Source: Rhodocyclaceae bacterium
GTDB taxonomy: Bacteria > Pseudomonadota > Gammaproteobacteria > Burkholderiales > Rhodocyclaceae
Direction of reading: 5' to 3'
NCBI GenBank assembly: GCA_013791905.1
Contig: VMSX01000020.1
Location: forward strand, 62,001 to 126,000
Length of the DNA: 64,000 bases
Each line of letters starts with the position of its first letter. The first letter of the stretch is position 1. Under the pieces are notes generated by a model. The model made no database searches. It saw only the letters and a list, made by a program, of their open reading frames with translations, and was not told where the DNA came from. Of the stretch, positions 38,942 through 49,946 are shown piece by piece. Both the position numbers and the translations under genes were made by a program.

Positions 38942-39868
38942 ATGCCACCCACGCCAACCACCACCCCACTCAAAGCGGTACTGACTGCTGCGTCAGAGAT
39001 CATCCTGGGCAAGGAGCATCAATTGCGTCAGGCGCTAGCCTGCCTGCTGGCGCGCGGCCACCTGCTGATCGAGGACCTGCCGGGGGTCGGCAAGACCACG
39101 CTGGCGCACACCCTCGCCCGCCTGCTCGGCATGGAGTTTCAACGCATCCAGTTCACCAGCGACATGCTGCCGGCCGATATCCTCGGCATTTCGGTATTCG
39201 ACCGCGAGCGCGGCGATTTCCGCTTTCATCCCGGCCCCATCTTCACCCAGGTCGTGCTGGCAGACGAGATCAACCGTGCCACGCCCAAGGCGCAAAGCGC
39301 CCTGCTTGAGGCAATGGAAGAGCGCCAGGTAACCGTTGAAGGGGCCACGCGCCCTCTGCCGCAACCGTTCTTCGTGATCGCCACACAAAACCCCTCGCAC
39401 CAGATCGGCACTTTTCCACTGCCCGAATCGCAACTTGACCGCTTCCTGATGCGTATTGAACTCGGTTATCCCGATCGCAGCGCCGAACGCGCCCTGCTCG
39501 AAGGGCGCGACCGCCGCAGTCTGCTGGCCGAAACCCAGCCACTTCTGTCGCCCGAAGTCCTGCTGGCAGAGCAGGCCCGCGCCGCCGCACTGCACGTCGC
39601 TGCGCCCCTCTTCGATTATGTGCAGGCATTGATCGCCCACACCCGTAACGCACCGGAATGGAAAACCGGCCTGTCGCCGCGTGCCGGGCTTGGTCTCATC
39701 GCCGCTGCGCGTGCCTGGGCGCTGCTCGCCGACCGCAATCACGTCCTGCCCGAGGACGTACAGGCAGTATTACCCGCAGTCGCCATACATCGTCTACCGA
39801 CCGCGGGGGACGCACGCAGTGCGGCTGAAATCGCCCAGGCATTGATTGAAGCCGTCCCGCTGCCTTAA
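38942..39868 (+). CDS. MoxR family AAA+ ATPase
   Basis: A 308-residue MoxR ATPase. Walker A is LIEDLPGVGKTTLAHTLA, Walker B QVVLADEINRATPKAQSALLEAMEERQVTVEG, sensor 1 IATQNPSHQIGTFPLPESQLDRF, and the C-terminal lid runs from PEVLLAEQ. MoxR proteins act as chaperones for metal-cofactor insertion or complex assembly and are normally followed by DUF58 (VWA-like) and transglutaminase genes. Here the gene is followed only by a terminator and the convergent iodate-reductase-like operon, so its usual partners are absent at this locus. Confidence 0.92.
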   Translation: MPPTPTTTPLKAVLTAASEIILGKEHQLRQALACLLARGHLLIEDLPGVGKTTLAHTLARLLGMEFQRIQFTSDMLPADILGISVFDRERGDFRFHPGPIFTQVVLADEINRATPKAQSALLEAMEERQVTVEGATRPLPQPFFVIATQNPSHQIGTFPLPESQLDRFLMRIELGYPDRSAERALLEGRDRRSLLAETQPLLSPEVLLAEQARAAALHVAAPLFDYVQALIAHTRNAPEWKTGLSPRAGLGLIAAARAWALLADRNHVLPEDVQAVLPAVAIHRLPTAGDARSAAEIAQALIEAVPLP

Positions 39869-39879
39869 TAAGTGCCAAC

Positions 39880-39935
39880 AAAGAAAAGGGTCTGCCGTCA
39901 CCCGGTCGTCTCGACGACCGGGTGGCGGCAGACCC
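39880..39935 (-). terminator. Strong terminator of the idr-like operon
   Basis: Bases 39888-39909 and 39914-39935 form a 22-bp inverted repeat (arms start GGGTCTGCCG and end CGGCAGACCC) broken only by one G-T pair, with a CTCG loop. On the minus strand it is followed by TTTTCTTT (39880-39887), as expected for termination of the leftward operon. It could also block read-through from moxR on the plus strand. Confidence 0.85.
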
Positions 39936-39956
39936 TGACAAACTGGCTACGCAGAA

Positions 39957-40280
39957 TTACTTCAATGTCAGAACGAACTGCACCAGTGTCTTCATATCCG
40001 CGTCCTTGACGGTGGCATTCGGCGGCATCGGGATGGGGCCCCAGACGTCCTTGCTGCCTTTCTTGACCGACAGCAGCAGCTTTTCTTCCGCCCCCGCAAC
40101 ACCGGCGTATTTCTTGCCGACCTCTTTCCAGGCCGGCCCGACCAGTTTCTTGTTGAGGTCGTGACAAGCCAGGCAACCGTTTTTCTTGGCGAGGGCCAGG
40201 GCCGCCGCCTCGTCGGCGGCTTGGGCAAACCCGGTCGCCAGCAAGAGGGCCGCAGGCAAAAAGATGAGTGTTTTCTTCAT
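39957..40280 (-). CDS. Class I c-type cytochrome (c551/c552-like), last gene of idr-like operon
   Basis: A 107-residue periplasmic monohaem cytochrome. The signal peptide is MKKTLIFLPAALLLATGFAQA; haem attachment is NGCLACHDLNKKLVGPAWKEVGKKYAG, and the distal Met ligand is in GPIPMPPN near residue 85. The fold and length match cytochrome c551/c552 electron shuttles. It starts 10 bp after the molybdenum subunit gene, with AAGGA before the ATG, so it belongs to the operon. Its likely job is carrying electrons between the respiratory chain and the Rieske/Mo complex. Confidence 0.92.
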   Translation of the reverse strand: MKKTLIFLPAALLLATGFAQAADEAAALALAKKNGCLACHDLNKKLVGPAWKEVGKKYAGVAGAEEKLLLSVKKGSKDVWGPIPMPPNATVKDADMKTLVQFVLTLK

Positions 40281-40290
40281 GAACTTTCCT

Positions 40291-42969
40291 TCAGACAATG
40301 TTGCGTGGTTTCAAAGTCATCAAAGTAAAGCTGTGCTTGTAGGGCGACTCGCCGACCTTCCGCAAGGTGCCGCGACCCAGCTTGTAGCGGTAGTTGTTGG
40401 TCATCGGATCGGGTACGGCCGAAACCACAGCGTTGGCTGGTGAGCTCGGGAAGTTGAAGTTGGCCATGGCAACGCCAGGGCGCATTTCATCCGACACGAT
40501 GGCAACCGCCTGGAACTTGCCGGCGGTAGTCATGATGTGGCCATCCTTCATCAACTGATTGAAGGTGAGATCGGCGTCGAGCACCCCTTGCGGCTGACCG
40601 GTCTGCACATACACCGTGTCATTGACCACTTCGACAAAATCGCCTGACTCGATACCGGCCCGTTTGGCGTCATCCGGATGAATCGTGATCGCGGAATCCG
40701 GCCAGCGCTTGGAGAGATAGGGCTTGCGCAGGTCGTCGAAACCCGATTGCCAAGTTTCATTGTAACGACCGTTGGTAATCCAGATTTCACCCTTGTCGGC
40801 GCGCGGCTTGATGGCATCGTAAAACTGGATCCAGCCAGCAAATTTCCATGGACTCTTCAGCAGGATGGCCTTGCCACTGTGCGTATTGAATGAGTGCAGC
40901 CACGAACGCTGGACCTCTACCCCCTCCATCTCACCCCAGTTATTGTTGGGGTCATGCAGACGCTGGGTGCCAACCAGTTTGCCATCGCGCACACGGATCG
41001 GAGTCTGGATACCGGTGGTGCCATAAGTACGCAGCAGTTCCTGCGCCTTGATACCCTTCTCCTTGGCCTGGGTGGCTAGTGGGTGATAGTTCAGCACCCC
41101 GCCACGCGAGAAGCGGGCGGCCTCTTCGAACACATCGTTGGAATCCTTCCAGGCGTAGCTGCCATCCTTGTCGAAGCCCATTTTCTGGGCGAACTTCTGC
41201 ACCGCCCACCAGTCCGGCTTGGCGTTGCCCGGCGCATCGTAAAACTTGCTGTAGAGGCGCAGGCGACGTTCCGAGTTGCAGCGGGTGAAGTTTTCCTCGC
41301 CCCAGGTGGCGGCGGGCAGCACGATGTCGGCAATTTCGGTACCAATCGGCACGCAGGGATAGATGTCGGAATCGACCATCACCGTACCGCCCGAATCGAC
41401 ACGCTTCTTGAGCGTTTCGAAAATCGCTGCACGGTCGAGGCTGGTGATCTTGTTGGGGTTGTCGATGGTCAGCTCGCGCATGCGCTTTTCGAGCGCACCC
41501 GAGGCCATCATCGCTGCAATCCACGTCGTGCCAAACACCCAGGCGAACTTGATCTCACCGGCCATCAGCCAGCGGTCCATGTTGAACGGCTTCTTGCGCC
41601 GCCCCGGATGCTTCTCCGGACTCAGCCAGCCGGAACCACCGCCCGCCGAAACCATGCCGCGCTGGTGGCCACCACCACGCGAGATCATGCGTCCTGGGCG
41701 ATTGCCGGAGCCGCAAATCAGGCCCAGTGCAGCCAGCGAGGTGGTGTTCATGTAATTGTTGGACCAGTAATTGCCCTTTTCCAGCATGAACGAAGTTTTG
41801 GGCATCTTGCCATCGACCGGCTTGGCAATCCACTCTGCGGCCTTCTGGATATCGGCGGCATTAAGCCCAGTCATTTTCGCGGCTACATCGAGCTTGGACT
41901 CTTCCTGGCTCAGGATGAACTTCTTGTAGTCCTCCCAATCGCTTTGCCAGGTGCCCCAGGTGGTGCGCCACTGCCAGCCGGTATTGCGGGTGCCGCGGCC
42001 ATAGCCGGAATCCACCTCCCACGGCTTGGCAATCCACTTGTCGATGAACTCCTGGTCCTGCCAGTTGTTCTCGATGACGATGCGCGCCAGCGCCATGTGC
42101 AGGATGGTGTCGGTGCCGGGAATGATCGGCAGCCAGATGCCACGCCCCTGCGCCACCGACCAGGCCACGCCCATGGTGCTGTGCGGCGTGACAAAGATGA
42201 ACTTCTTATTGCCCGGCATCATCCACTGGGTGAATAACGTGGTCTTCGTCTCATACGGGTCGACGCCCGACAGAAAGGCCACATCGCTGTCGGCCCAATC
42301 CTGGTAGCTCGCCGAGAATGAGTCGATGCCAGAATCGTCGAGGCCAGCGGCGTCGTTGGTGTTGGCATTCTTGTCGTGCGGCGCGATGCTGGGCGTGCCA
42401 ATGCTGGTCATGCCCAGCTTGGTAATGGCATAGGTGTTCTCGAAATACTGGTAGGAGTACATCTTGATGGCCCAGGCATGCTCGCCATACTTTGCAATGA
42501 CATACTTCGAAATGTCGGCCATGACATCGGTGGCAAGGTCCCAGCTGACCGGGGTCAGCTTGCCGTTCACCCGGATCATCGGATCCTGCAGGCGTTCCCG
42601 CGTCCGGTTACCCGGGTTGAAGCATTTTTCGGCGAGGGTACCGCCCCGCACCGAATGGTCGCCACCTTTGTTGACGACGGTGGCATCCTTGTCCGGCACG
42701 ACGATGACATTGTGCGGTTTGCCCTTGTAGCTCACCACGTTGTATTGGTGCGGACTGACCCAGGCGGTCATCATCCCCTGGTGCGGGAAGCTCGTCTTCA
42801 GCGCGTTCTGTCCAGCCGCAGCGCCACCGTCCTTGCTGCCCACCGGCCAGCGATATACCTTGTAGCCGCAGGCCACCGTGCAGTAATCGCAGGCCGTGGT
42901 GAATACGTCCGCATCCTTCGGGGGCAGCGGCACGGAATCCACTCTCTTTGCTATCTCGTGTTTACTCAT
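40291..42969 (-). CDS. idrA: AioA/IdrA-family molybdopterin oxidoreductase, probable iodate reductase catalytic subunit
   Basis: An 892-residue DMSO-reductase-superfamily enzyme. The N-terminal cluster motif is Cys27-x2-Cys30-x3-Cys34 (CDYCTVACGYKVYRWP), with Ser106 (HSVRGG) at the position of the fourth-ligand Ser of arsenite oxidase, predicting a 3Fe-4S cluster. There is no signal peptide; export would be by piggy-back on the Tat-targeted Rieske subunit, as for AioAB. By comparison with recalled AioA sequence, Ala208 replaces the arsenite-contacting His, while the RGGGHQRG stretch near residue 430 is kept. The flanking Rieske and two di-haem peroxidase genes match the iodate reductase set, so iodate rather than arsenite is the inferred substrate. 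GAGGAG precedes the ATG. Confidence 0.82.
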   Translation of the reverse strand: MSKHEIAKRVDSVPLPPKDADVFTTACDYCTVACGYKVYRWPVGSKDGGAAAGQNALKTSFPHQGMMTAWVSPHQYNVVSYKGKPHNVIVVPDKDATVVNKGGDHSVRGGTLAEKCFNPGNRTRERLQDPMIRVNGKLTPVSWDLATDVMADISKYVIAKYGEHAWAIKMYSYQYFENTYAITKLGMTSIGTPSIAPHDKNANTNDAAGLDDSGIDSFSASYQDWADSDVAFLSGVDPYETKTTLFTQWMMPGNKKFIFVTPHSTMGVAWSVAQGRGIWLPIIPGTDTILHMALARIVIENNWQDQEFIDKWIAKPWEVDSGYGRGTRNTGWQWRTTWGTWQSDWEDYKKFILSQEESKLDVAAKMTGLNAADIQKAAEWIAKPVDGKMPKTSFMLEKGNYWSNNYMNTTSLAALGLICGSGNRPGRMISRGGGHQRGMVSAGGGSGWLSPEKHPGRRKKPFNMDRWLMAGEIKFAWVFGTTWIAAMMASGALEKRMRELTIDNPNKITSLDRAAIFETLKKRVDSGGTVMVDSDIYPCVPIGTEIADIVLPAATWGEENFTRCNSERRLRLYSKFYDAPGNAKPDWWAVQKFAQKMGFDKDGSYAWKDSNDVFEEAARFSRGGVLNYHPLATQAKEKGIKAQELLRTYGTTGIQTPIRVRDGKLVGTQRLHDPNNNWGEMEGVEVQRSWLHSFNTHSGKAILLKSPWKFAGWIQFYDAIKPRADKGEIWITNGRYNETWQSGFDDLRKPYLSKRWPDSAITIHPDDAKRAGIESGDFVEVVNDTVYVQTGQPQGVLDADLTFNQLMKDGHIMTTAGKFQAVAIVSDEMRPGVAMANFNFPSSPANAVVSAVPDPMTNNYRYKLGRGTLRKVGESPYKHSFTLMTLKPRNIV

Positions 42970-42979
42970 GGTGATCTCC

Positions 42980-43552
42980 TCAAGCCTTGCGTTGCGTCGT
43001 CATGGCGCTGTAGCCATAAACGAGACCCATAACGCCCACCGCATAGATGTCGTCGCCCTGAATTTCCAGCACGATCTGCGGCAGGCTGTCGGTGGCCTGA
43101 CCGGATATGACCATGCCATGGTGGGTCAGATCGAAGGTGGTCAGGTGCAGCGGACAGGGACCGAGGGCCTGGTACTTATCCTTGTAGGTGCCATCCAAGG
43201 GCCCGCCCATGTGGGTGCATTGCTGATTGAAGGCGACGATATCCTTCTGCGGGCCAGCCCCGCCGCCGGCTTCGACACCCAGCTTGACGAGGATGTTGCG
43301 CACATCGGAGTAGGGATAGTTGAAGGGCAGCGGGACACCCTTTTTCAGGGCGGCGAGACTGCCGATCCTCTGGCGCGGATAGCTTGCCTTGAGCGCCTGC
43401 GCCGCCTCTGCAGAACCGGGCAAGGCACCGAGACTCACCAGCGCGACGGTTGCGCCGCCCGTCAGCAGGAACTGGCGGCGACTCATGCACAGGCGGTCAC
43501 CGGCTTTTTCATCGTGGTGTTCGGTTTCGACGGGAATGATTGTTTGGCTCAT
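42980..43552 (-). CDS. idrB: Tat-exported Rieske subunit, IdrB/AioB-like
   Basis: A 190-residue Rieske [2Fe-2S] protein. The N-terminus has a twin-arginine signal (SRRQFLLTGGATVALVSLG, residues 24-42). The cluster ligands are Cys112-x-His114 (QQCTHMGGPLDG) and Cys133-x2-His136 (GPCPLHLTTFDL). The extra cysteines that form a disulfide in bc1-type Rieske proteins are absent. It would escort the molybdenum subunit to the periplasm and relay electrons to or from it. It lies 10 bp upstream of the Mo subunit gene and 13 bp downstream of a di-haem peroxidase gene. Confidence 0.88.
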   Translation of the reverse strand: MSQTIIPVETEHHDEKAGDRLCMSRRQFLLTGGATVALVSLGALPGSAEAAQALKASYPRQRIGSLAALKKGVPLPFNYPYSDVRNILVKLGVEAGGGAGPQKDIVAFNQQCTHMGGPLDGTYKDKYQALGPCPLHLTTFDLTHHGMVISGQATDSLPQIVLEIQGDDIYAVGVMGLVYGYSAMTTQRKA

Positions 43553-43565
43553 GATCAGCTCCTCC

Positions 43566-44693
43566 TTATTTGACCGGCGGCGGCAGCGGCTGATAGTCGC
43601 CGGGCAGCTTGGGGTCGTCGTGAATCAACGGCTCGGTCATGGACAAAGCATCGATGAAAGCCAGCAGGTCTTTCTTCTCGGCGGGCTTCAGCTTCAGCGG
43701 CTTCAGCAGCTTGGTCTTGTTCATGCCCGGTCCGCCGCCGACGTCGTAGAAGTCCACCACCTGGTCAAGCGTAGCGAACACGCCGTTGTGCATGTAAGGC
43801 CCGGTGTACTTCACCTCGCGCAGGGACGGCACGCGGAACTTGCCCTTGTCCTTGGGATTCTTGGTCCCGAAATAGAGCCCCAAGTCATTGGCTGCGTCGC
43901 GATAAACGCCCTCGGAAACACCCTTCTGGTAGTACTGCCAGCGGTGCGTAACCTGCAGGAGCGGGTCATCCTTGAAGCCCGGATGATCGGGCACACCGAT
44001 GTCGTAGAACCGCTGGTCTGAAGCGAGCGGACCGTTGTGACACTGAATACAACCGGCCTTGCCGTTGAAGAGCGCCATGCCACGCTTCTGCGAGTCGTTC
44101 AGCGCCTTCTTGTCACCCTTGGCATGGCGATCGAACGGCACCTTGCTGGCATCCGACACAACCGTGCGCTGGTAGGCGGCAATGGCCCGATAGGCATCGA
44201 ACATCCGCGGCCATTCGTTACCGAACACCTGCCTGAAGGCGGCGACATATTCAGGAATGAAGCGCAGGCGCATTTCCATCACCGACGTATCGCCGTTGCC
44301 AGCCACGCCACCCTCGGCGGCCGCAGGTGCCTGAGCTTCCAGACTGGTGACCGAACCTTCCCAGAACAGCTTGTTGTAGTAGGCAGAATTCAGAATCGTC
44401 TGCGAATTGCGCCAGTGCTTGGTGCCCGGATAGCCGCGCGATATTTCGCCACCGTCACCCCAGCCCAGTGCGGGCAAATGGCAGGAAACGCAGGGCATCG
44501 AGTTGTCGCCGGACAGGCGGTTATCCCAGAACAGTTGCTTGCCGAGGGCGATCTTCGCCGGCGTATTGGGATTGTCTTTCGGAATCGGCACCGGCGGCAA
44601 AGGTGCCAGCGGCGGAAATTTCTGGGCCAGCGCGGTTCCCGTCAGTAGAAGACCGGCCAGGCCAACAGCATATATGGCAAGTTGCTTTCTCAT
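43566..44693 (-). CDS. Di-haem cytochrome c peroxidase-like protein (IdrP-type), second gene of operon
   Basis: A 375-residue periplasmic protein: signal peptide MRKQLAIYAVGLAGLLLTGTALAQ, a first haem site at Cys68-x2-Cys71-His72 (MPCVSCHLPALGWGDG) and a second at KAGCIQCHNGP. It has the MauG/CcpA layout including SLREVKYTGPYMHNGVFATLDQVVDFYDVGGG. In the reported iodate reductase complex two such proteins (IdrP1, IdrP2) are proposed to remove H2O2 made at the Mo site. Which of the two this one corresponds to cannot be told. GGGAGG lies before the ATG. Confidence 0.87.
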   Translation of the reverse strand: MRKQLAIYAVGLAGLLLTGTALAQKFPPLAPLPPVPIPKDNPNTPAKIALGKQLFWDNRLSGDNSMPCVSCHLPALGWGDGGEISRGYPGTKHWRNSQTILNSAYYNKLFWEGSVTSLEAQAPAAAEGGVAGNGDTSVMEMRLRFIPEYVAAFRQVFGNEWPRMFDAYRAIAAYQRTVVSDASKVPFDRHAKGDKKALNDSQKRGMALFNGKAGCIQCHNGPLASDQRFYDIGVPDHPGFKDDPLLQVTHRWQYYQKGVSEGVYRDAANDLGLYFGTKNPKDKGKFRVPSLREVKYTGPYMHNGVFATLDQVVDFYDVGGGPGMNKTKLLKPLKLKPAEKKDLLAFIDALSMTEPLIHDDPKLPGDYQPLPPPVK

Positions 44694-44704
44694 GGTCGCC
44701 TCCC

Positions 44705-45787
44705 TCAATTTTTGCCGTAGACACGCGGTTGCATGTCAGGCTGATCGGGTACCTTCATGGTGACTTTGTCACCCGAAAGCGTGAGCAGGAAGGCCACCAG
44801 CGCCTTCTTCTCCGTGGCCGTCAGATTAAGCGGCTGCAGCACCGCGCCTTCACCGCCACCCTTGTCGTAAAAATCGACCACCTGATCCAGCGTCGCAAAC
44901 ATGCCGTTGTGCATATAGGGCGCGGTGTATTTGAGATCACGCAATTGCGCAGTCTGGAATTTGCCGATATCGCGCTTGTCCTTGGTGATGGCGTAGCTGC
45001 CGACGTCGGTGCGCGCGTTCATGTAGTTGGGCATACCGCTGGTTGCATAGTGACGCAGCATGGTGATGGTGCGCAGCGGATTCTTCAGCACATCCGGATG
45101 CTCGGGCACGCCGGTCTTGTAGAGCTTGCCGTCGGAACCGATCGGGCCGTTGTGACAGGACACGCAATTGGCCTTGCCCTTGAAGACTTCATAGCCGGCC
45201 TTGGCCTCGGCGCTGATCGCGGCGGCATCGCCCTTGACGAATTTATCGAATGGCGCATTGGTCGTTTCCAGAGAACGGATGAACTCGCCGATGACGTTGA
45301 ATACGCGCATGCCGTTGATGTCGTCGTTACGCCATTTCTTCCACAGGGCGTTGTATTCGGGCACCTGCTTGAGACGTTCCTGCATCAGACGACTATCCAT
45401 GTTCATGGTGTGCGTCTCGGTAATCATGTCGCGCACCAGGGTGCCGGCGTCTGCGCCGTCAAGGCGACCGTCCCACATGAAACGAATACGATGGCGTGCG
45501 TTGATCACGGTCGGTGCATTGCGGAAATATTCCATCGACGGATATCCCGCCGACAGCGCCTGCCCGTCGGCCCAACCCTTCTCTGGATCATGACAGGAAG
45601 CGCAGGACACTCCCCAGTCACCGGAAATACGATTGTCAAAATAGAAATGGCGGCCCAGCTCGATCATGGCCGCATTGCCCGGTTTGGTTTCGGGCATCGC
45701 TTGCAATTCCGGCGCCTTGCTTTGCGCCAGCGCGCCGGTCATGCCGATGACCAGACCGAGAACAACTGCGTGTTTCGCGATTCGCAT
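44705..45787 (-). CDS. Di-haem cytochrome c peroxidase-like protein (IdrP-type), first gene of operon
   Basis: A 360-residue periplasmic di-haem protein and paralogue of the next gene. The signal peptide is MRIAKHAVVLGLVIGMTGALAQ; haem sites are Cys62-x2-Cys65-His66 (VSCASCHDPEKGWADG) and KANCVSCHNGP, and the C-terminal TAPYMHNGMFATLDQVVDFYDKGGG matches its partner. The start at 45787 has GAGGGGGA just upstream and a sigma-54 promoter about 60 bases away. It is the first gene of the five-gene unit, 11 bp before the second peroxidase gene. Confidence 0.87.
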   Translation of the reverse strand: MRIAKHAVVLGLVIGMTGALAQSKAPELQAMPETKPGNAAMIELGRHFYFDNRISGDWGVSCASCHDPEKGWADGQALSAGYPSMEYFRNAPTVINARHRIRFMWDGRLDGADAGTLVRDMITETHTMNMDSRLMQERLKQVPEYNALWKKWRNDDINGMRVFNVIGEFIRSLETTNAPFDKFVKGDAAAISAEAKAGYEVFKGKANCVSCHNGPIGSDGKLYKTGVPEHPDVLKNPLRTITMLRHYATSGMPNYMNARTDVGSYAITKDKRDIGKFQTAQLRDLKYTAPYMHNGMFATLDQVVDFYDKGGGEGAVLQPLNLTATEKKALVAFLLTLSGDKVTMKVPDQPDMQPRVYGKN

Positions 45788-45847
45788 GATTCCCCCTCGC
45801 GTTAATGAGTTTGCGCACAGGACAATCCTGTGCCGCAGGGGAGTTAA

Positions 45848-45863
45848 TGCATGGTTCGTGCCA
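45848..45863 (-). promoter_or_regulatory. Sigma-54 (-24/-12) promoter of the idr-like operon
   Basis: The minus strand reads TGGCACGAACCATGCA, against the RpoN consensus TGGCACG-N4-TTGCA: the -24 element is perfect and the -12 element has one change, with the invariant GG and GC pairs correctly spaced. Transcription would start near 45838, about 50 bases before the first ATG. It sits between a gene for an NtrC-type activator and its presumed target. Confidence 0.88.
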
Positions 45864-45933
45864 GCATGCGGATGCGCACAAAGGATCGCGCCAGAGCAGT
45901 CCCACAAAGGGATAGACAAACCACACCAACTGC

Positions 45934-45953
45934 GTGGGCATGCAAATGCCCAC
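45934..45953. promoter_or_regulatory. Palindrome, probable activator (UAS) site for the idr-like operon
   Basis: GTGGGCAT and ATGCCCAC form a perfect 8-bp inverted repeat separated by GCAA. Its centre is about 105 bp upstream of the predicted sigma-54 start site, the normal enhancer distance for NtrC-family activators. No T-run follows, so it is not a terminator. Binding by the adjacent regulator is inferred from position. Confidence 0.65.
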
Positions 45954-45980
45954 AAGTGGTCAATATTTATCCGGCAATAG

Positions 45981-46009
45981 AAATAATTAACCGGTTAATT
46001 TTTAACCGG
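45981..46009 (-). terminator. Hairpin terminator after the NtrC-type regulator gene
   Basis: CCGGTTAA (45991-45998) and TTAACCGG (46002-46009) pair around a three-base loop, 10 bases past the regulator stop. On the minus strand the tail reads TTAATTATTT. It separates the regulator unit from the operon below, so the latter depends on its own sigma-54 promoter. Confidence 0.65.
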
Positions 46010-46018
46010 CTTTCGCCC

Positions 46019-47380
46019 CTACTCGTCGCCGAACTCGGAACCCTTGAGCTTGTTCCGCAACGTGAGCCGAGTGATGCCGAGCAGTTCGGCGGCATGGGTC
46101 TTGTTGCCATCGCACTGCGCCAGCACCACGCGAATGTGTGCAGCCTCGACCTCAGCCAATGTGGCTGTTATGTCTGTGACTGCCGCGTTAAAAGTCGGCG
46201 CTGGCGGGACGGCGCGGGAAATCTCCAGTGGCAGTTGCGCCGGACCGATGGTGCCGCCTTCGCAGAGAATCACGGCCCGCTCCAGCACATTACGCAGTTC
46301 GCGCACATTGCCCGGCCAAGTGTAGCCGCTCAGCAATGCCGTACTTTCGGATGGCAGCTCCGGCGGTGCCAATCCCGTGGCCAGTGCGGCAGCCCGCAGG
46401 AAGTGGCGGGCGAGCACGGGAATGTCCTCGCGCCGGGCGCGCAGGGGCGGCACATCGATGGCACCGACGTTGAGTCGATAGTAGAGGTCTTCACGAAAAC
46501 GCCCGCGTTGGACCATCTCCGGCAGATTGCGGTGGGTGGCCGCGACGAACCGCACATCGACCTGGATTTCCCGACTGCCGCCCAGGCGGCGGAAGCTCTG
46601 CGTTTCCAGCACCCGCAGCAATTTTGGTTGCAGGCTCAGCGAAAGATCGCCGATCTCGTCAAGAAACAACGTGCCACCGTCCGCCAGTTCCAGCAGGCCG
46701 CGCTTCAGCGCCTTGGCATCGGTGAAAGCCCCCTTTTCGTGGCCGAACATCTCCGATTCCATCAGACCTTCGGGCAGCGCCGAACAATTCAGCGTCACCC
46801 ACGGCCCATTGGCGCGCGGCGACTGACAGTGGATGGCACGGGCGACACGCTCCTTGCCCGATCCTGACTCGCCGCGAATCAACACCGGCACGCGCGAGGC
46901 GGCAATTTTATGGGTAACCGCCACCAGTTCCCGAAAAGCCGGGCTGTCACCGATCAATCCTTCGAGTTCGCAGACAGCGGATTGCGCGCGACGCCACTCG
47001 ACCTCGTGGCGCAACCGCCGGGTTTCCAGGGCACGGCCGATCAGGCTGGCCAGATCCTCCAGGTCGAAGGGCTTGTTGATGTAGTCGTAGGCACCGGCCT
47101 TGAGCGCCGCCACAGCCGTGCGCACCTCCGGATAGGCGGTCATGGTGACGACCAGCGCTTCGCTATCCAGTTCGCGCAACCGGGCGATCACTTCGAGGCC
47201 CTGGATATCCGGCAGGCGGATATCCAGCAGGACCAACTCGTGACGCCGCTCCTGCGCCAGCGCGATTCCCTGTTCGCCCGTCGCCGCCTCATCGACAGCA
47301 AAACCCTGGCGACGCAGAAAACCGCCAAGCGTCAAACGCAGGGTTTCGTCGTCTTCGATGATGAGTATTGAAGTGGGCAT
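46019..47380 (-). CDS. NtrC-family sigma-54-dependent response regulator
   Basis: A protein of about 453 residues: receiver domain (1-~120, phospho-acceptor in LVLLDIRLPD, Lys in INKPF), AAA+ domain (~140-375) and Fis-type helix-turn-helix at the end (GNKTHAAELLGITRLTLRNKL). Walker A is RGESGSGKERVARAIH; the sigma-54 contact loop reads GAFTDA rather than GAFTGA; Walker B is GGTLFLDEIGDL. The linker before the helix-turn-helix contains PPAPTFN, encoded by a dispersed-repeat copy. A GTG at 47389 is an alternative start overlapping the kinase stop. It most likely activates the operon below, as AioR does for aio genes. Confidence 0.92.
   Translation of the reverse strand: MPTSILIIEDDETLRLTLGGFLRRQGFAVDEAATGEQGIALAQERRHELVLLDIRLPDIQGLEVIARLRELDSEALVVTMTAYPEVRTAVAALKAGAYDYINKPFDLEDLASLIGRALETRRLRHEVEWRRAQSAVCELEGLIGDSPAFRELVAVTHKIAASRVPVLIRGESGSGKERVARAIHCQSPRANGPWVTLNCSALPEGLMESEMFGHEKGAFTDAKALKRGLLELADGGTLFLDEIGDLSLSLQPKLLRVLETQSFRRLGGSREIQVDVRFVAATHRNLPEMVQRGRFREDLYYRLNVGAIDVPPLRARREDIPVLARHFLRAAALATGLAPPELPSESTALLSGYTWPGNVRELRNVLERAVILCEGGTIGPAQLPLEISRAVPPAPTFNAAVTDITATLAEVEAAHIRVVLAQCDGNKTHAAELLGITRLTLRNKLKGSEFGDE
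46190..46213 (-). repeat. Dispersed repeat, copy inside the NtrC-type regulator
   Basis: A perfect copy in reverse orientation on the plus strand (AAAAGTCGGCGCTGGCG then GGACGGC). It is read in the sense direction by the regulator gene and encodes VPPAPTF in the flexible linker between AAA+ and DNA-binding domains. Confidence 0.8.
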
Positions 47381-47385
47381 GGTGG

Positions 47386-49347
47386 TCACAATTGCAGGGG
47401 CCAGTACAGGGTAATGCAGGTTCCGTGCCCTGTCTCGCTCTCTACCCGGATTTCGGCGCCATGTTCACGGACGATCTTGGCGATGATCGCCAGACCCAGG
47501 CCCGACCCCCCGGGCCGGGTAGTAAAGAATGGATCGAAGATGCGTGGCAGCACGTCGGCGGAAATTCCACTGCCTGAGTCCACGATATCGATGCGGGCGC
47601 GAGACCCGTCTGCTACCGCAGACATGATCAAGCGGCCACCGTTAGGCATGGCGTGCAGGGCGTTCACCACCAGATTCAAGAGCACCTGCTTCAATTGTGC
47701 GGGATCTGCCGTCAGGGGCGGCAGATCGACAGGAATCATCGTCTCGATATCGATGTCGATACTTTTCGCTTCCTTGCGTGTCCAGAACAGTACATCCCGT
47801 ACCACCTCATCCAGATCGACCGCTTGCAAGTTTGGCGCCGTCGGTGCGGCAAAGCCATGGAAACTGCGCAGAAAATCGGAGAGGCGATCCACCTCGGCTT
47901 CGAAACGGCGCAAGGCTTCCCGGATGCCGGGCGGCAGGTCTTCCTCGAATTGCACCGCTTGGGCGACCGCTTTCATACCCGCGAGCGGATTGCCTATTTC
48001 ATGAGCCATCCCCATCGCCAGCTCACCCATGGTCGCCATTTTGTCCATCTGGAACATCTGGCGGTCAACCTCGCGCCGCTCCTCCTGTTCACGCTCAAGC
48101 TCGGCGGTACGGGCACGCACTTCGTCTTCGAGCCGGTCCCGGTGTGCGGCGAGCGAACCAACCAATTGCTCGATCCGCGCTGCCATGGCGTTGAATTTCT
48201 CGCCCAGCCCGGCAATTTCGTCGCTGCCCCGCACCTCAACCCGGTGCGAAAAATTGCCCGCCGCAATCTCCTCGGACTCTCGGCTCAACGCCTCCAGCGG
48301 TTTAAGCAAGTGGCGCGAAAGCGCATAACCACCAATCGCCGTCGCGAGCAGGCTGATGCCAAGAATGGCATACAGCGCATAGAGGTTGAATACCGAGAAG
48401 AATAACGTCCGCTCGGGAAAAGCCACCGCAATCACCCAGGGCGCCGCCTCTTCCTTGGGGTACGTTGGCCCGAAGCGAATCGCTGCATGCGCAAAAATGT
48501 CATTGGCCACTGAACTCGTACCATCGGCGGTAACAAAAATATCTTTGATCGCCTCAGTACCGAAGCGTGATTCCAGGCTTTCGATCGGTTGCAAGGAAAA
48601 TTTTGCCTTGCTGCTAGCCGTGTGCGCCAGAAAGTGTCCGGCACGATCAAACAGATAGGCCGTGCCAGAACGGGCCTGCACCATCTGCTGGATCTGCTCA
48701 AGCAAAAAGTCGGCGTGGAGGTTGATGACAAGCATGCCGTCATTGGGACCGCTGCCCGTGCCGATCGGGGTGGCAACGCGAATCACCGGCCGTTCCGGCT
48801 GCTCGACAACCCCGAACTCGATGTTGAGATCGAGCGGCGAGACATACAACTCGCCGGGTTTGCGACGGATGGCATCAGAAAAATAGTAGCGGTCCGCTTT
48901 ATTCTGGAGCCGCTCGGCGGGAATCACGGTGACCTGACTATCCTTCTTATCGACACGGACGATCTCCTGGCCGCCGGCATCCATATAGCGGATCTGGTAA
49001 AGGTGCGGGTAAGTCGTTGCCAGAGATGTGTAGTCGCGCTCCAGCCGCGTCGTTGCAGCACCAATGCGCTGGCGGTCACCCGTCCGCAGCGCCACGCGCA
49101 GTTCCTCCAGCGGCGCCGCATCTGCCAGATAGAGTATCTCTGCCGCCAACTGGTCAAAAAACAGCCCGACACCCTGCGCCCGCACTGCCACCTCCTGCTG
49201 GAGATTGCGCAAGGTCTCCGCACGCAGCGTATCAAGCGAGACGTAAATGCCGATCAGTCCGGCCAGAGCAGTCGGAATGACTGCCGCCATCAGAAAGGCA
49301 AAATAGATACGCCGCGCCAGGCCTCGTAAAGGTTTGGTAATCGTCAT
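47386..49347 (-). CDS. Membrane sensor histidine kinase, partner of the NtrC-type regulator
   Basis: A kinase of about 653 residues. One N-terminal helix (IYFAFLMAAVIPTALAGLIGIYV), a large periplasmic region of ~270 residues with Cache-like features (QIRYMDAGGQEIVRVD, YYFSDAIRRKPGELYVSPLDL, VIRVATPI), a second helix near 330, a HAMP domain, a coiled coil, then HisKA (MAMGMAHEIGNPLAGMKAVAQAV) and HATPase (LLNLVVNALHAMPNGG, DSGSGISADVLPRIFDPFFTTRPGGSGLGLAI). Cache domains bind small ligands, so it may sense the electron acceptor directly. The ATG at 49347 is preferred over a TTG at 49353. Its stop overlaps the region of the regulator start. Confidence 0.9.
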   Translation of the reverse strand: MTITKPLRGLARRIYFAFLMAAVIPTALAGLIGIYVSLDTLRAETLRNLQQEVAVRAQGVGLFFDQLAAEILYLADAAPLEELRVALRTGDRQRIGAATTRLERDYTSLATTYPHLYQIRYMDAGGQEIVRVDKKDSQVTVIPAERLQNKADRYYFSDAIRRKPGELYVSPLDLNIEFGVVEQPERPVIRVATPIGTGSGPNDGMLVINLHADFLLEQIQQMVQARSGTAYLFDRAGHFLAHTASSKAKFSLQPIESLESRFGTEAIKDIFVTADGTSSVANDIFAHAAIRFGPTYPKEEAAPWVIAVAFPERTLFFSVFNLYALYAILGISLLATAIGGYALSRHLLKPLEALSRESEEIAAGNFSHRVEVRGSDEIAGLGEKFNAMAARIEQLVGSLAAHRDRLEDEVRARTAELEREQEERREVDRQMFQMDKMATMGELAMGMAHEIGNPLAGMKAVAQAVQFEEDLPPGIREALRRFEAEVDRLSDFLRSFHGFAAPTAPNLQAVDLDEVVRDVLFWTRKEAKSIDIDIETMIPVDLPPLTADPAQLKQVLLNLVVNALHAMPNGGRLIMSAVADGSRARIDIVDSGSGISADVLPRIFDPFFTTRPGGSGLGLAIIAKIVREHGAEIRVESETGHGTCITLYWPLQL

Positions 49348-49427
49348 TGCCAAGAAGCCTATTTATGCTTCTGGAAAATGATTATCGCGTCCTGATGAAC
49401 GCGTTCCATCAAGATGTTCTTCATAGG

Positions 49428-49449
49428 TCATTGGGATCGGAGCCAATGA
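49428..49449. repeat. Inverted repeat between the kinase and yaiI
   Basis: TCATTGG and CCAATGA form a 7-bp perfect inverted repeat with an 8-base spacer in the 146-bp divergent intergenic region. It could be an operator for either gene; nothing else supports a function. Confidence 0.4.
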
Positions 49450-49493
49450 TGAGGTGAGATGCTATTGTAGAGCCCCGCCAGAATAGCCTCATC

Positions 49494-49946
49494 ATGAAGA
49501 TTTGGGTCGATGCCGACGCCTGCCCGGCAGCCATCAAGGACATCCTCTACCGCGCCGCGAACCGTGCGCAGCTGTCATTGACGCTGATCGCCAACCAGAT
49601 GCTGCGGGTGCCGCCTTCGCCATGGATTCGCGCGTTGCAGGTGCAGTCGGGGTTCGACGTCGCCGACCAGCGCATCGTTCAGGAGGCGATTGCCGGCGAT
49701 CTGGTGATCACCGCCGACATACCGCTTGCCGCGCTGGTGATCGCCAAAGGCGCCCAAGTCCTCGATCCGCGTGGCGATCTGCTCGATGCGGGCAACATTC
49801 AGGAGCGCCTGACGATGCGCAACTTCATGGACGGTTTGCGCAGCGGCGGTGTCGAAACCGGAGGACCCGCCGCCTTTTCAGCTGCCGACCGGCAGGCATT
49901 TGCGAACCGGCTCGACGGACTGCTGGCCAGACGAACCCAGCCCTGA
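49494..49946 (+). CDS. YaiI/YqxD family protein (DUF188)
   Basis: A 150-residue DUF188 protein, beginning with the invariant [24 protein letters not shown] and containing [26 protein letters not shown]. The fold is PIN-like with clustered acidic residues, which suggests a nuclease-type site, but no activity has been assigned. It converges with the DbpA-type helicase gene (10-bp gap). Confidence 0.9.

Follow-up and report, generated by a model that had tools for sequence, protein, structure and literature searches.

The window, that is, the whole stretch of 64,000 bases analyzed here, covers bases 62001 to 126000 of a 220,674-base contig, and the betaproteobacterial genome comprises 3.64 Mb in 30 contigs. 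On the minus strand, positions 39957 to 45787 carry five genes, idrP2, idrP1, idrB, idrA, and the gene of a c551-type cytochrome, separated by intergenic gaps of 11, 13, 10, and 10 bp. The idrP2 gene (44705 to 45787) starts with ATG and encodes a 360-aa di-haem protein of the MauG/CCP family with two CxxCH motifs and an altered distal pocket. A second member of this family, likewise with an ATG start and two CxxCH motifs, is encoded by idrP1 (43566 to 44693; 375 aa); it keeps the distal-pocket Gln, while the Pro and Glu are replaced by Ala. The two proteins are paralogues (39% identity over 277 residues), and their N termini, judged by eye, resemble signal peptides. The Rieske subunit encoded by idrB (42980 to 43552; 190 aa) has the Tat motif SRRQFL and the Rieske motif CxHx18CxxH, and idrA (40291 to 42969) encodes the 892-aa molybdopterin catalytic subunit. 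By motif search, the CX2CX3C [3Fe-4S] motif of IdrA is followed by a Ser 71 residues further on, a spacing written as X70 in the paper on strain DN11 (PMC10149662). The last gene (39957 to 40280) encodes a 107-aa cytochrome c with one haem motif (CLACH), whose kin in the PDB are cytochromes c551/c552. Pfam models match all five proteins and NCBIfam models four of the five; the cytochrome has a Pfam match and no NCBIfam match. The initial annotation had described five same-strand genes with gaps of 10 to 13 bp, comprising a paralogous di-haem pair, a Tat-signal Rieske protein, an AioA-family subunit, and a small cytochrome, and all of this was confirmed.

The unit extends past position 45787. 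Upstream on the same strand lie a gene for a sigma-54-dependent response regulator (46019 to 47389), with receiver, Sigma54_activat, and Fis-type HTH domains, and a gene for a histidine kinase (47386 to 49353), with Cache-type sensor and HAMP domains. At the other end, a hairpin followed by a T-rich stretch (39887 to 39936, minus strand) is a likely operon terminator; the fold of minus-strand positions 39870 to 39960 has an energy of −52.4 kcal/mol (z −8.0). Judged by its gene content, the locus is a complete, self-regulated gene set of the known iodate-reduction type.

About 60 nt before the idrP2 ATG lies a sigma-54 (−24/−12) promoter-like site, TGGCACGAACCATGCA (45848 to 45863, minus strand; one mismatch), which recurs in kin with this regulator. 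With up to two mismatches, such a site precedes idrP2 in 17 of 21 loci that have a strong regulator match, versus 6 of 43 loci without one; with at most one mismatch the counts are 10 of 21 versus 3 of 43, compared with 0.06 and 0.28 loci after base shuffling. The loose sigma-54 pattern is not enriched over the window as a whole (39 occurrences against 46 expected from shuffled sequence), so the case for the promoter rests on position and recurrence. In DN11, atoC and atoS lie upstream of idr, and excerpts of the same paper contain no mention of a promoter for the DN11 idr genes (PMC10149662). Allowing up to 4 mismatches, a 23-base repeat, AAAGTCGGCGCTGGCGGGACGGC, is dispersed through the window in 11 copies and also occurs in congeners. 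One copy lies inside the window regulator gene (46191 to 46213), and copies are also present inside the regulator genes of loci L035, L038, L039, L042, and L052.

Placement of the catalytic subunit among Idr and Aio

A scan of named genomes returned at least 515 relatives among at least 591 candidate stretches. Among the best 80 of these, which were kept, IdrA identities to the window protein include 83% for Azoarcus Aa7, 82% for Aromatoleum toluvorans, 76% for Denitromonas iodatirespirans IR-12, and 64% for Notoacmeibacter marinus; the top identity among the matches listed is 84%, for a groundwater metagenome-assembled genome (L030). The reading of the operon as dissimilatory iodate reductase (idr) and not arsenite oxidase (aio), which the initial annotation had offered together with a phylogenetic check of the large subunit, is borne out by the trees, by diagnostic columns, and by the di-haem genes beside idrA. 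In the trees, IdrA falls within an Idr clade apart from Aio, with an SH-aLRT of 100 in a 94-row tree (which omits the fragments L057 and L067, the duplicates L168 and L171, and L107) and with 100/100 in a tree of 36 chosen rows. The window IdrA is sister to a seven-row Azoarcus/Aromatoleum clade (SH-aLRT 98 with 94 rows; 93/98 with 36 rows, below the tool's star). IR-12 belongs to the same part of the tree and N. marinus lies further out. Long branches are flagged among the Aio and basal rows, and plasmid row L027, a distant enzyme, is placed among the outgroup. In each of two genomes (Sulfuritalea sp. bin.273 and G497), a pair of different idrA genes from separate subclades was seen, namely, L035 with L055 and L113 with L125.

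An alignment of 87 Idr rows, the window's among them, with 15 Aio rows yields 14 columns at which 96% or more of the Idr sequences share one residue and 90% or more of the Aio sequences share a different one; the window carries the Idr residue at all 14 and the Aio state at none. These columns provide a simple way to tell Idr from Aio. At four of them, the Gln, Glu, Ala, or Ser of Aio gives way to Lys242, Arg437, Arg523, and Arg563 (87, 86, 87, and 87 of the 87 Idr rows, respectively), and the positive charge gained in this way would favor an anion such as iodate over uncharged arsenite. The residues that we take to form the arsenite site align with His198, Asp206, Arg431, and His435 of the window protein; His, Arg, and His are thus kept, and Glu is replaced by Asp, the residue found in 79 of the 87 Idr rows.

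The neighborhoods of the best 80 named loci (of at least 515) contain idrB in 73 cases, idrP1 in 73, idrP2 in 61, and at least one P gene in 74. No P gene was matched at 16 Aio-type loci, as the initial annotation had led us to expect, within flanks of only 1.5 to 4 kb. Among the six loci that lack both P genes, five have idrA near a contig end, and L097 (10001 to 12682) shows no idrP match despite full flanks. L016, a basal Idr row, likewise has no idrP match in its short flank; L097 and L016 may mark the limit of Idr function. In a Dehalococcoidia clade (L085, L090, L092, L100), idrP1 directly precedes idrA and idrB has no match. The exact order P2-P1-B-A is present in the window and in 58 of the best 80 named relatives, and the full order kinase-regulator-P2-P1-B-A-cytochrome in 9 of the 80. 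It had been suggested that the gene order might differ from that of described loci. This was not borne out: idrAB is reported to be always preceded by idrP1P2, with a two-component system and a cytochrome as frequent accessories (PMC8801600), the order P2, P1, B, A is given for Pseudomonas SCT, IR-12, and Methylomirabilis (PMC10989891), and the seven-gene order is identical in IR-12 (L047).

Both subunits exceed the cut-offs of the NCBIfam arsenite-oxidase models (TIGR02693, 429 bits versus 359; TIGR02694, 112 versus 96), and the His, Arg, and His presumed to belong to the arsenite site are retained. The operon could accordingly be read as an Aio arsenite oxidase, the label that the NCBI models would give it, with two di-haem genes adjacent by accident. 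We consider this highly improbable, as IdrA lies outside the Aio clade at full support, has the Aio state at none of the 14 diagnostic columns, and is only about 29% identical to NT-26 AioA, and as di-haem genes stand beside idrA in 74 of the best 80 relatives versus 0 of 16 Aio-type loci (flanks of 1.5 to 4 kb). The NCBIfam Aio models do not separate Idr from Aio. The predicted mislabel as arsenite oxidase is evident from these scores and from the annotation of the closest annotated plasmid relative, an Azonexus idr copy labeled arsenate reductase (azurin); iodate-reduction genes are thus systematically filed as arsenite oxidase. The window genome holds no second match to the IdrA protein at an E value of 1e-20 or below, and a second enzyme of the aio/arx type was rejected on this ground. 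One further DNA match of 36 bases lies in a reading frame for a distant molybdopterin enzyme (24% identity).

Insertion site, with probable horizontal transfer and mosaic ancestry

The five-gene operon, the kinase, and the sigma-54 regulator are the seven genes of an island at 39865 to 49492, a 9,628-bp insertion between two host genes on the plus strand, one for a MoxR-type AAA ATPase (38942 to 39868) and one for a DUF188 (YaiI/YqxD) protein (49494 to 49946). Homology with relatives stops at 39864 and resumes at 49493. The GC content of the island is 59.4% versus 60.4% for the rest, and no transposase or integrase is found among its genes. Between 300-base stretches across the island ends, a search for a target-site duplication or terminal repeats gave nothing beyond a single 13-base match (92%) and matches of 7 to 8 bases, which were not taken as signal.

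We compared the junction in five genomes of the same genus (G674, G677, G675, G671, and G680). The empty junction, at which the flanking genes meet directly, is seen in two of them: in G674, homology reaches window base 39864 and resumes at 49493, and in G677 it reaches 39864 and resumes at 49495; the latter genome differs beyond DUF188 and has the helicase on another contig. In both, the stop codon of the MoxR gene overlaps the start codon of DUF188 (ATGA and GTGA). G675 is missing DUF188, and only 68 bp separate its MoxR gene from the helicase; G671 and G680 are uninformative on the junction, as each has the flanking genes on separate contigs. An assembly chimera is unlikely, since both flanks match the same neighbors in congeners.

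Gain of the island by horizontal transfer is the simplest reading of these junctions. The alternative, presence in the ancestor of the genus followed by loss in the congeners without the island, draws on the idrA matches in 3 of 19 genomes of the genus, namely, the window's own, G669 (77%), and G675 (two fragments on different contigs). However, a deletion would have to recreate the 4-base stop/start overlap exactly at both empty sites, and 16 of the 19 members have no idrA match (7 of the 19 are less than 90% complete or more than 5% contaminated). In addition, the DNA left of the G669 module has its counterparts in the window genome on contigs C6 and C20 and not on the window's contig, so the G669 copy sits elsewhere, and the G669 IdrA is 77% like the window's, yet IdrA proteins of two other genera of the family reach 80 to 81%. 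We therefore regard ancestral presence followed by loss as unlikely and retain horizontal gain.

Transfer of idr has already been published for a 12.7-kb region in strain TC-10 (PMC8801600). What the window adds to that case is ends defined at the base level, in another lineage, for a unit of little more than the seven genes.

Matches to IdrA also occur in 39 plasmid records, two at 77 to 82%, one (a Vibrio megaplasmid) at 47%, and the other 36 at 24 to 30%; the three at 77 to 82% and 47% show the idr arrangement. The plasmid idr clusters are L022 (NZ_CP151407.1, 232976 to 259651), L023 and L173 (NZ_CP133216.1), and L024 (NZ_CP045339.1), with Azonexus hydrophilus, Thiothrix subterranea, and a Vibrio (the megaplasmid) as hosts. 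In the Azonexus plasmid copy, moaA follows the cytochrome gene, and the cluster adjoins TnsA/TnsD-like genes and an IS21 element. In titles and abstract openings of the plasmid and island literature and of idrA papers since 2022, the scope of our search, we found no report of idr on a plasmid.

Regulator and catalytic halves do not share one history in all loci. For 18 loci with kinase, regulator, and four core genes, the core tree (1,848 columns) and the kinase/regulator tree (1,122 columns) disagree: the window core groups with the Azoarcus set, and the window regulators group with Sulfuritalea-type loci. In AU tests, placing the window regulators with the Azoarcus type is rejected (p = 5e-7), placing the window core with the Sulfuritalea type is rejected weakly (p = 0.03), and core and regulators are also discordant in L170 and L060 (AU p = 2e-38 and 7e-7, respectively); these p values are optimistic because the groups were defined with the trees already in view. 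The tree conflict indicates that sensor and enzyme halves were clearly exchanged in L170 and L060, and they were probably exchanged in the window locus.

Distal pockets of IdrP1 and IdrP2

Bacterial peroxidases, MauG, and BthA share a conserved distal Gln, Pro, and Glu, and peroxidase variants altered at the Gln or Glu are inactive (PMC10094543, PMC6405878). Counted from the Trp between the haems, these residues are at +10 (Gln), +14 (Pro), and +20 (Glu) in two references, and 71 of 81 IdrP1 and 55 of 64 IdrP2 sequences could be placed by motif. Of the 71 IdrP1 sequences, 67 keep the Gln, none has the Pro (68 have Ala), and none has a Glu at +20, with a Glu at +19 in three; in the alignment of all 81, the Glu column lacks Glu throughout and the Gln column has Gln in 80. 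IdrP2 differs in that Arg takes the place of Pro in 52 of the 55 placed sequences and that 51 of the 55 have a Glu at +19, shifted by one residue from its normal position; Gln occurs at +10 in none of 54 and, by alignment, in 5 of 64. This Glu could serve as the distal Glu if the indel were placed differently. The distal His of classical peroxidases aligns with Tyr in 74 of 81 IdrP1 and all 64 IdrP2 sequences, and the position of the second-haem Met ligand is Tyr, as in MauG, in 68 of 74 IdrP1 and 62 of 64 IdrP2 sequences. The window IdrP1 and IdrP2 share the pocket and second-haem states of their groups.

With its distal Pro and Glu lost, IdrP1 is unlikely to work as a peroxidase through the known mechanism. 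The initial proposal that both IdrP proteins remove peroxide is doubtful for this reason and because IdrP2, too, has an altered pocket; the published peroxidase role of IdrP is likewise at odds with the residues seen. PMC11445184 describes the roles of IdrP1 and IdrP2 as still unclear. The residue pattern turns this standing question into a testable one. IdrA, IdrP1, and IdrP2 are all present in the active Idr bands from SCT and DN11 (PMC10149662), which would fit a complex. In a speculative reading, which we hold to be less likely than not, IdrP1 and IdrP2 might be MauG-like di-haem subunits of an Idr complex and not peroxide scavengers, with IdrP1, which has lost the O−O-cleaving Glu, only relaying electrons and IdrP2, with its rebuilt Glu/Arg/His pocket, reducing hypoiodous acid from IdrA; the seven-gene module would move as a precise block, its sensor and catalytic halves swapped between hosts. 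If true, hypoiodous acid reduction by IdrP2 would fill a step for which no chlorite-dismutase gene was found in the genome.

Proposed mechanism and comparison with known systems

The locus is very probably a complete iodate-reduction island, with an operon switched by the kinase and regulator and periplasmic iodate reduction by IdrAB, acquired by horizontal transfer. As to signal, electron route, substrate, and chemistry, we propose the following. The membrane histidine kinase would sense iodate or a related signal and activate the sigma-54 regulator, which would turn on a single operon from the promoter upstream of idrP2. IdrA would be exported together with IdrB by means of the IdrB Tat signal, and the small cytochrome would carry electrons from the bc1 complex to IdrAB. 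In the periplasm, the enzyme would reduce iodate, with hypoiodous acid as the probable product; this acid would then disproportionate chemically to iodide and iodate. IdrP1 and IdrP2 would act alongside IdrAB, IdrP1 at least being an unlikely standard peroxidase. The whole block would have come by horizontal transfer and been inserted between two host genes.

Two models of the Idr mechanism are in print (PMC8692401). The IR-12 model, in which a cytochrome feeds IdrAB and the hypoiodous acid formed disproportionates chemically, fits the window genome, which has bc1 Rieske and MoaA matches and no match to the chlorite dismutase family; PF06778 is absent from this genome and detected in 7 of 14 control genomes, and a chlorite dismutase was rejected accordingly.

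Judged from the sequence, the organism may respire iodate. Deletion of idrA in D. iodatirespirans IR-12 abolished growth on iodate (PMC8692401), and N. marinus reduces iodate (PMC11445184). Under static conditions, iodate was reduced by three idr-bearing marine aerobes, none of which grew anaerobically on it (PMC11445184); this would agree with Idr acting as an electron sink or detoxifier at low oxygen and not for growth on iodate. The window IdrA is, however, placed closer to the Azoarcus, Aromatoleum, and Denitromonas sequences, among which growth on iodate has been published (DN11, PMC10149662; TC-10, PMC8801600; IR-12, PMC8692401), and a role restricted to an electron sink or detoxifier seems to us the less probable one. 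A literature search for iodate in Sulfuritalea turned up a single paper, on the microbiomes of horsetails.

Iodate reducers shape the iodine cycle and have been discussed for the removal of iodine-129 (PMC10149662). The idr system itself is already known in the literature; added here are the base-level ends of the island, the pairing of regulator and promoter, the exchange of halves, and the changes in the IdrP pockets, which sharpen the question of what IdrP1 and IdrP2 do.

Among known systems, DN11 (PMC10149662) and TC-10 (PMC8801600) are represented by their papers and lie outside the compared loci. The IR-12 cluster (L047; PMC8692401) resembles that of the window in having kinase, regulator, P2, P1, B, A, and cytochrome on one strand and a sigma-54-like site before idrP2; it differs in that IdrA is 76% identical, the kinase and regulator are only 49 to 63% identical, and the window has its own insertion site. 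The Azoarcus/Aromatoleum clusters (L031, L060) belong to the closest IdrA clade and share the gene order with kinase and regulator upstream, but they have no cytochrome match after idrA, and their kinase and regulator belong to a different group. The Aio system of NT-26 (L025) likewise combines a CX2CX3C molybdopterin subunit, a Rieske subunit, an upstream kinase and regulator, and a small downstream cytochrome, although its identity is about 29%, no di-haem genes lie in the stretch compared, and other residues occupy the 14 diagnostic columns. Finally, MauG and the bacterial cytochrome c peroxidases share with IdrP1 and IdrP2 the CCP_MauG domain, two CxxCH motifs, and the Trp between the haems, and differ from them at the distal pocket, where IdrP1 has lost the Pro and Glu and IdrP2 is altered.
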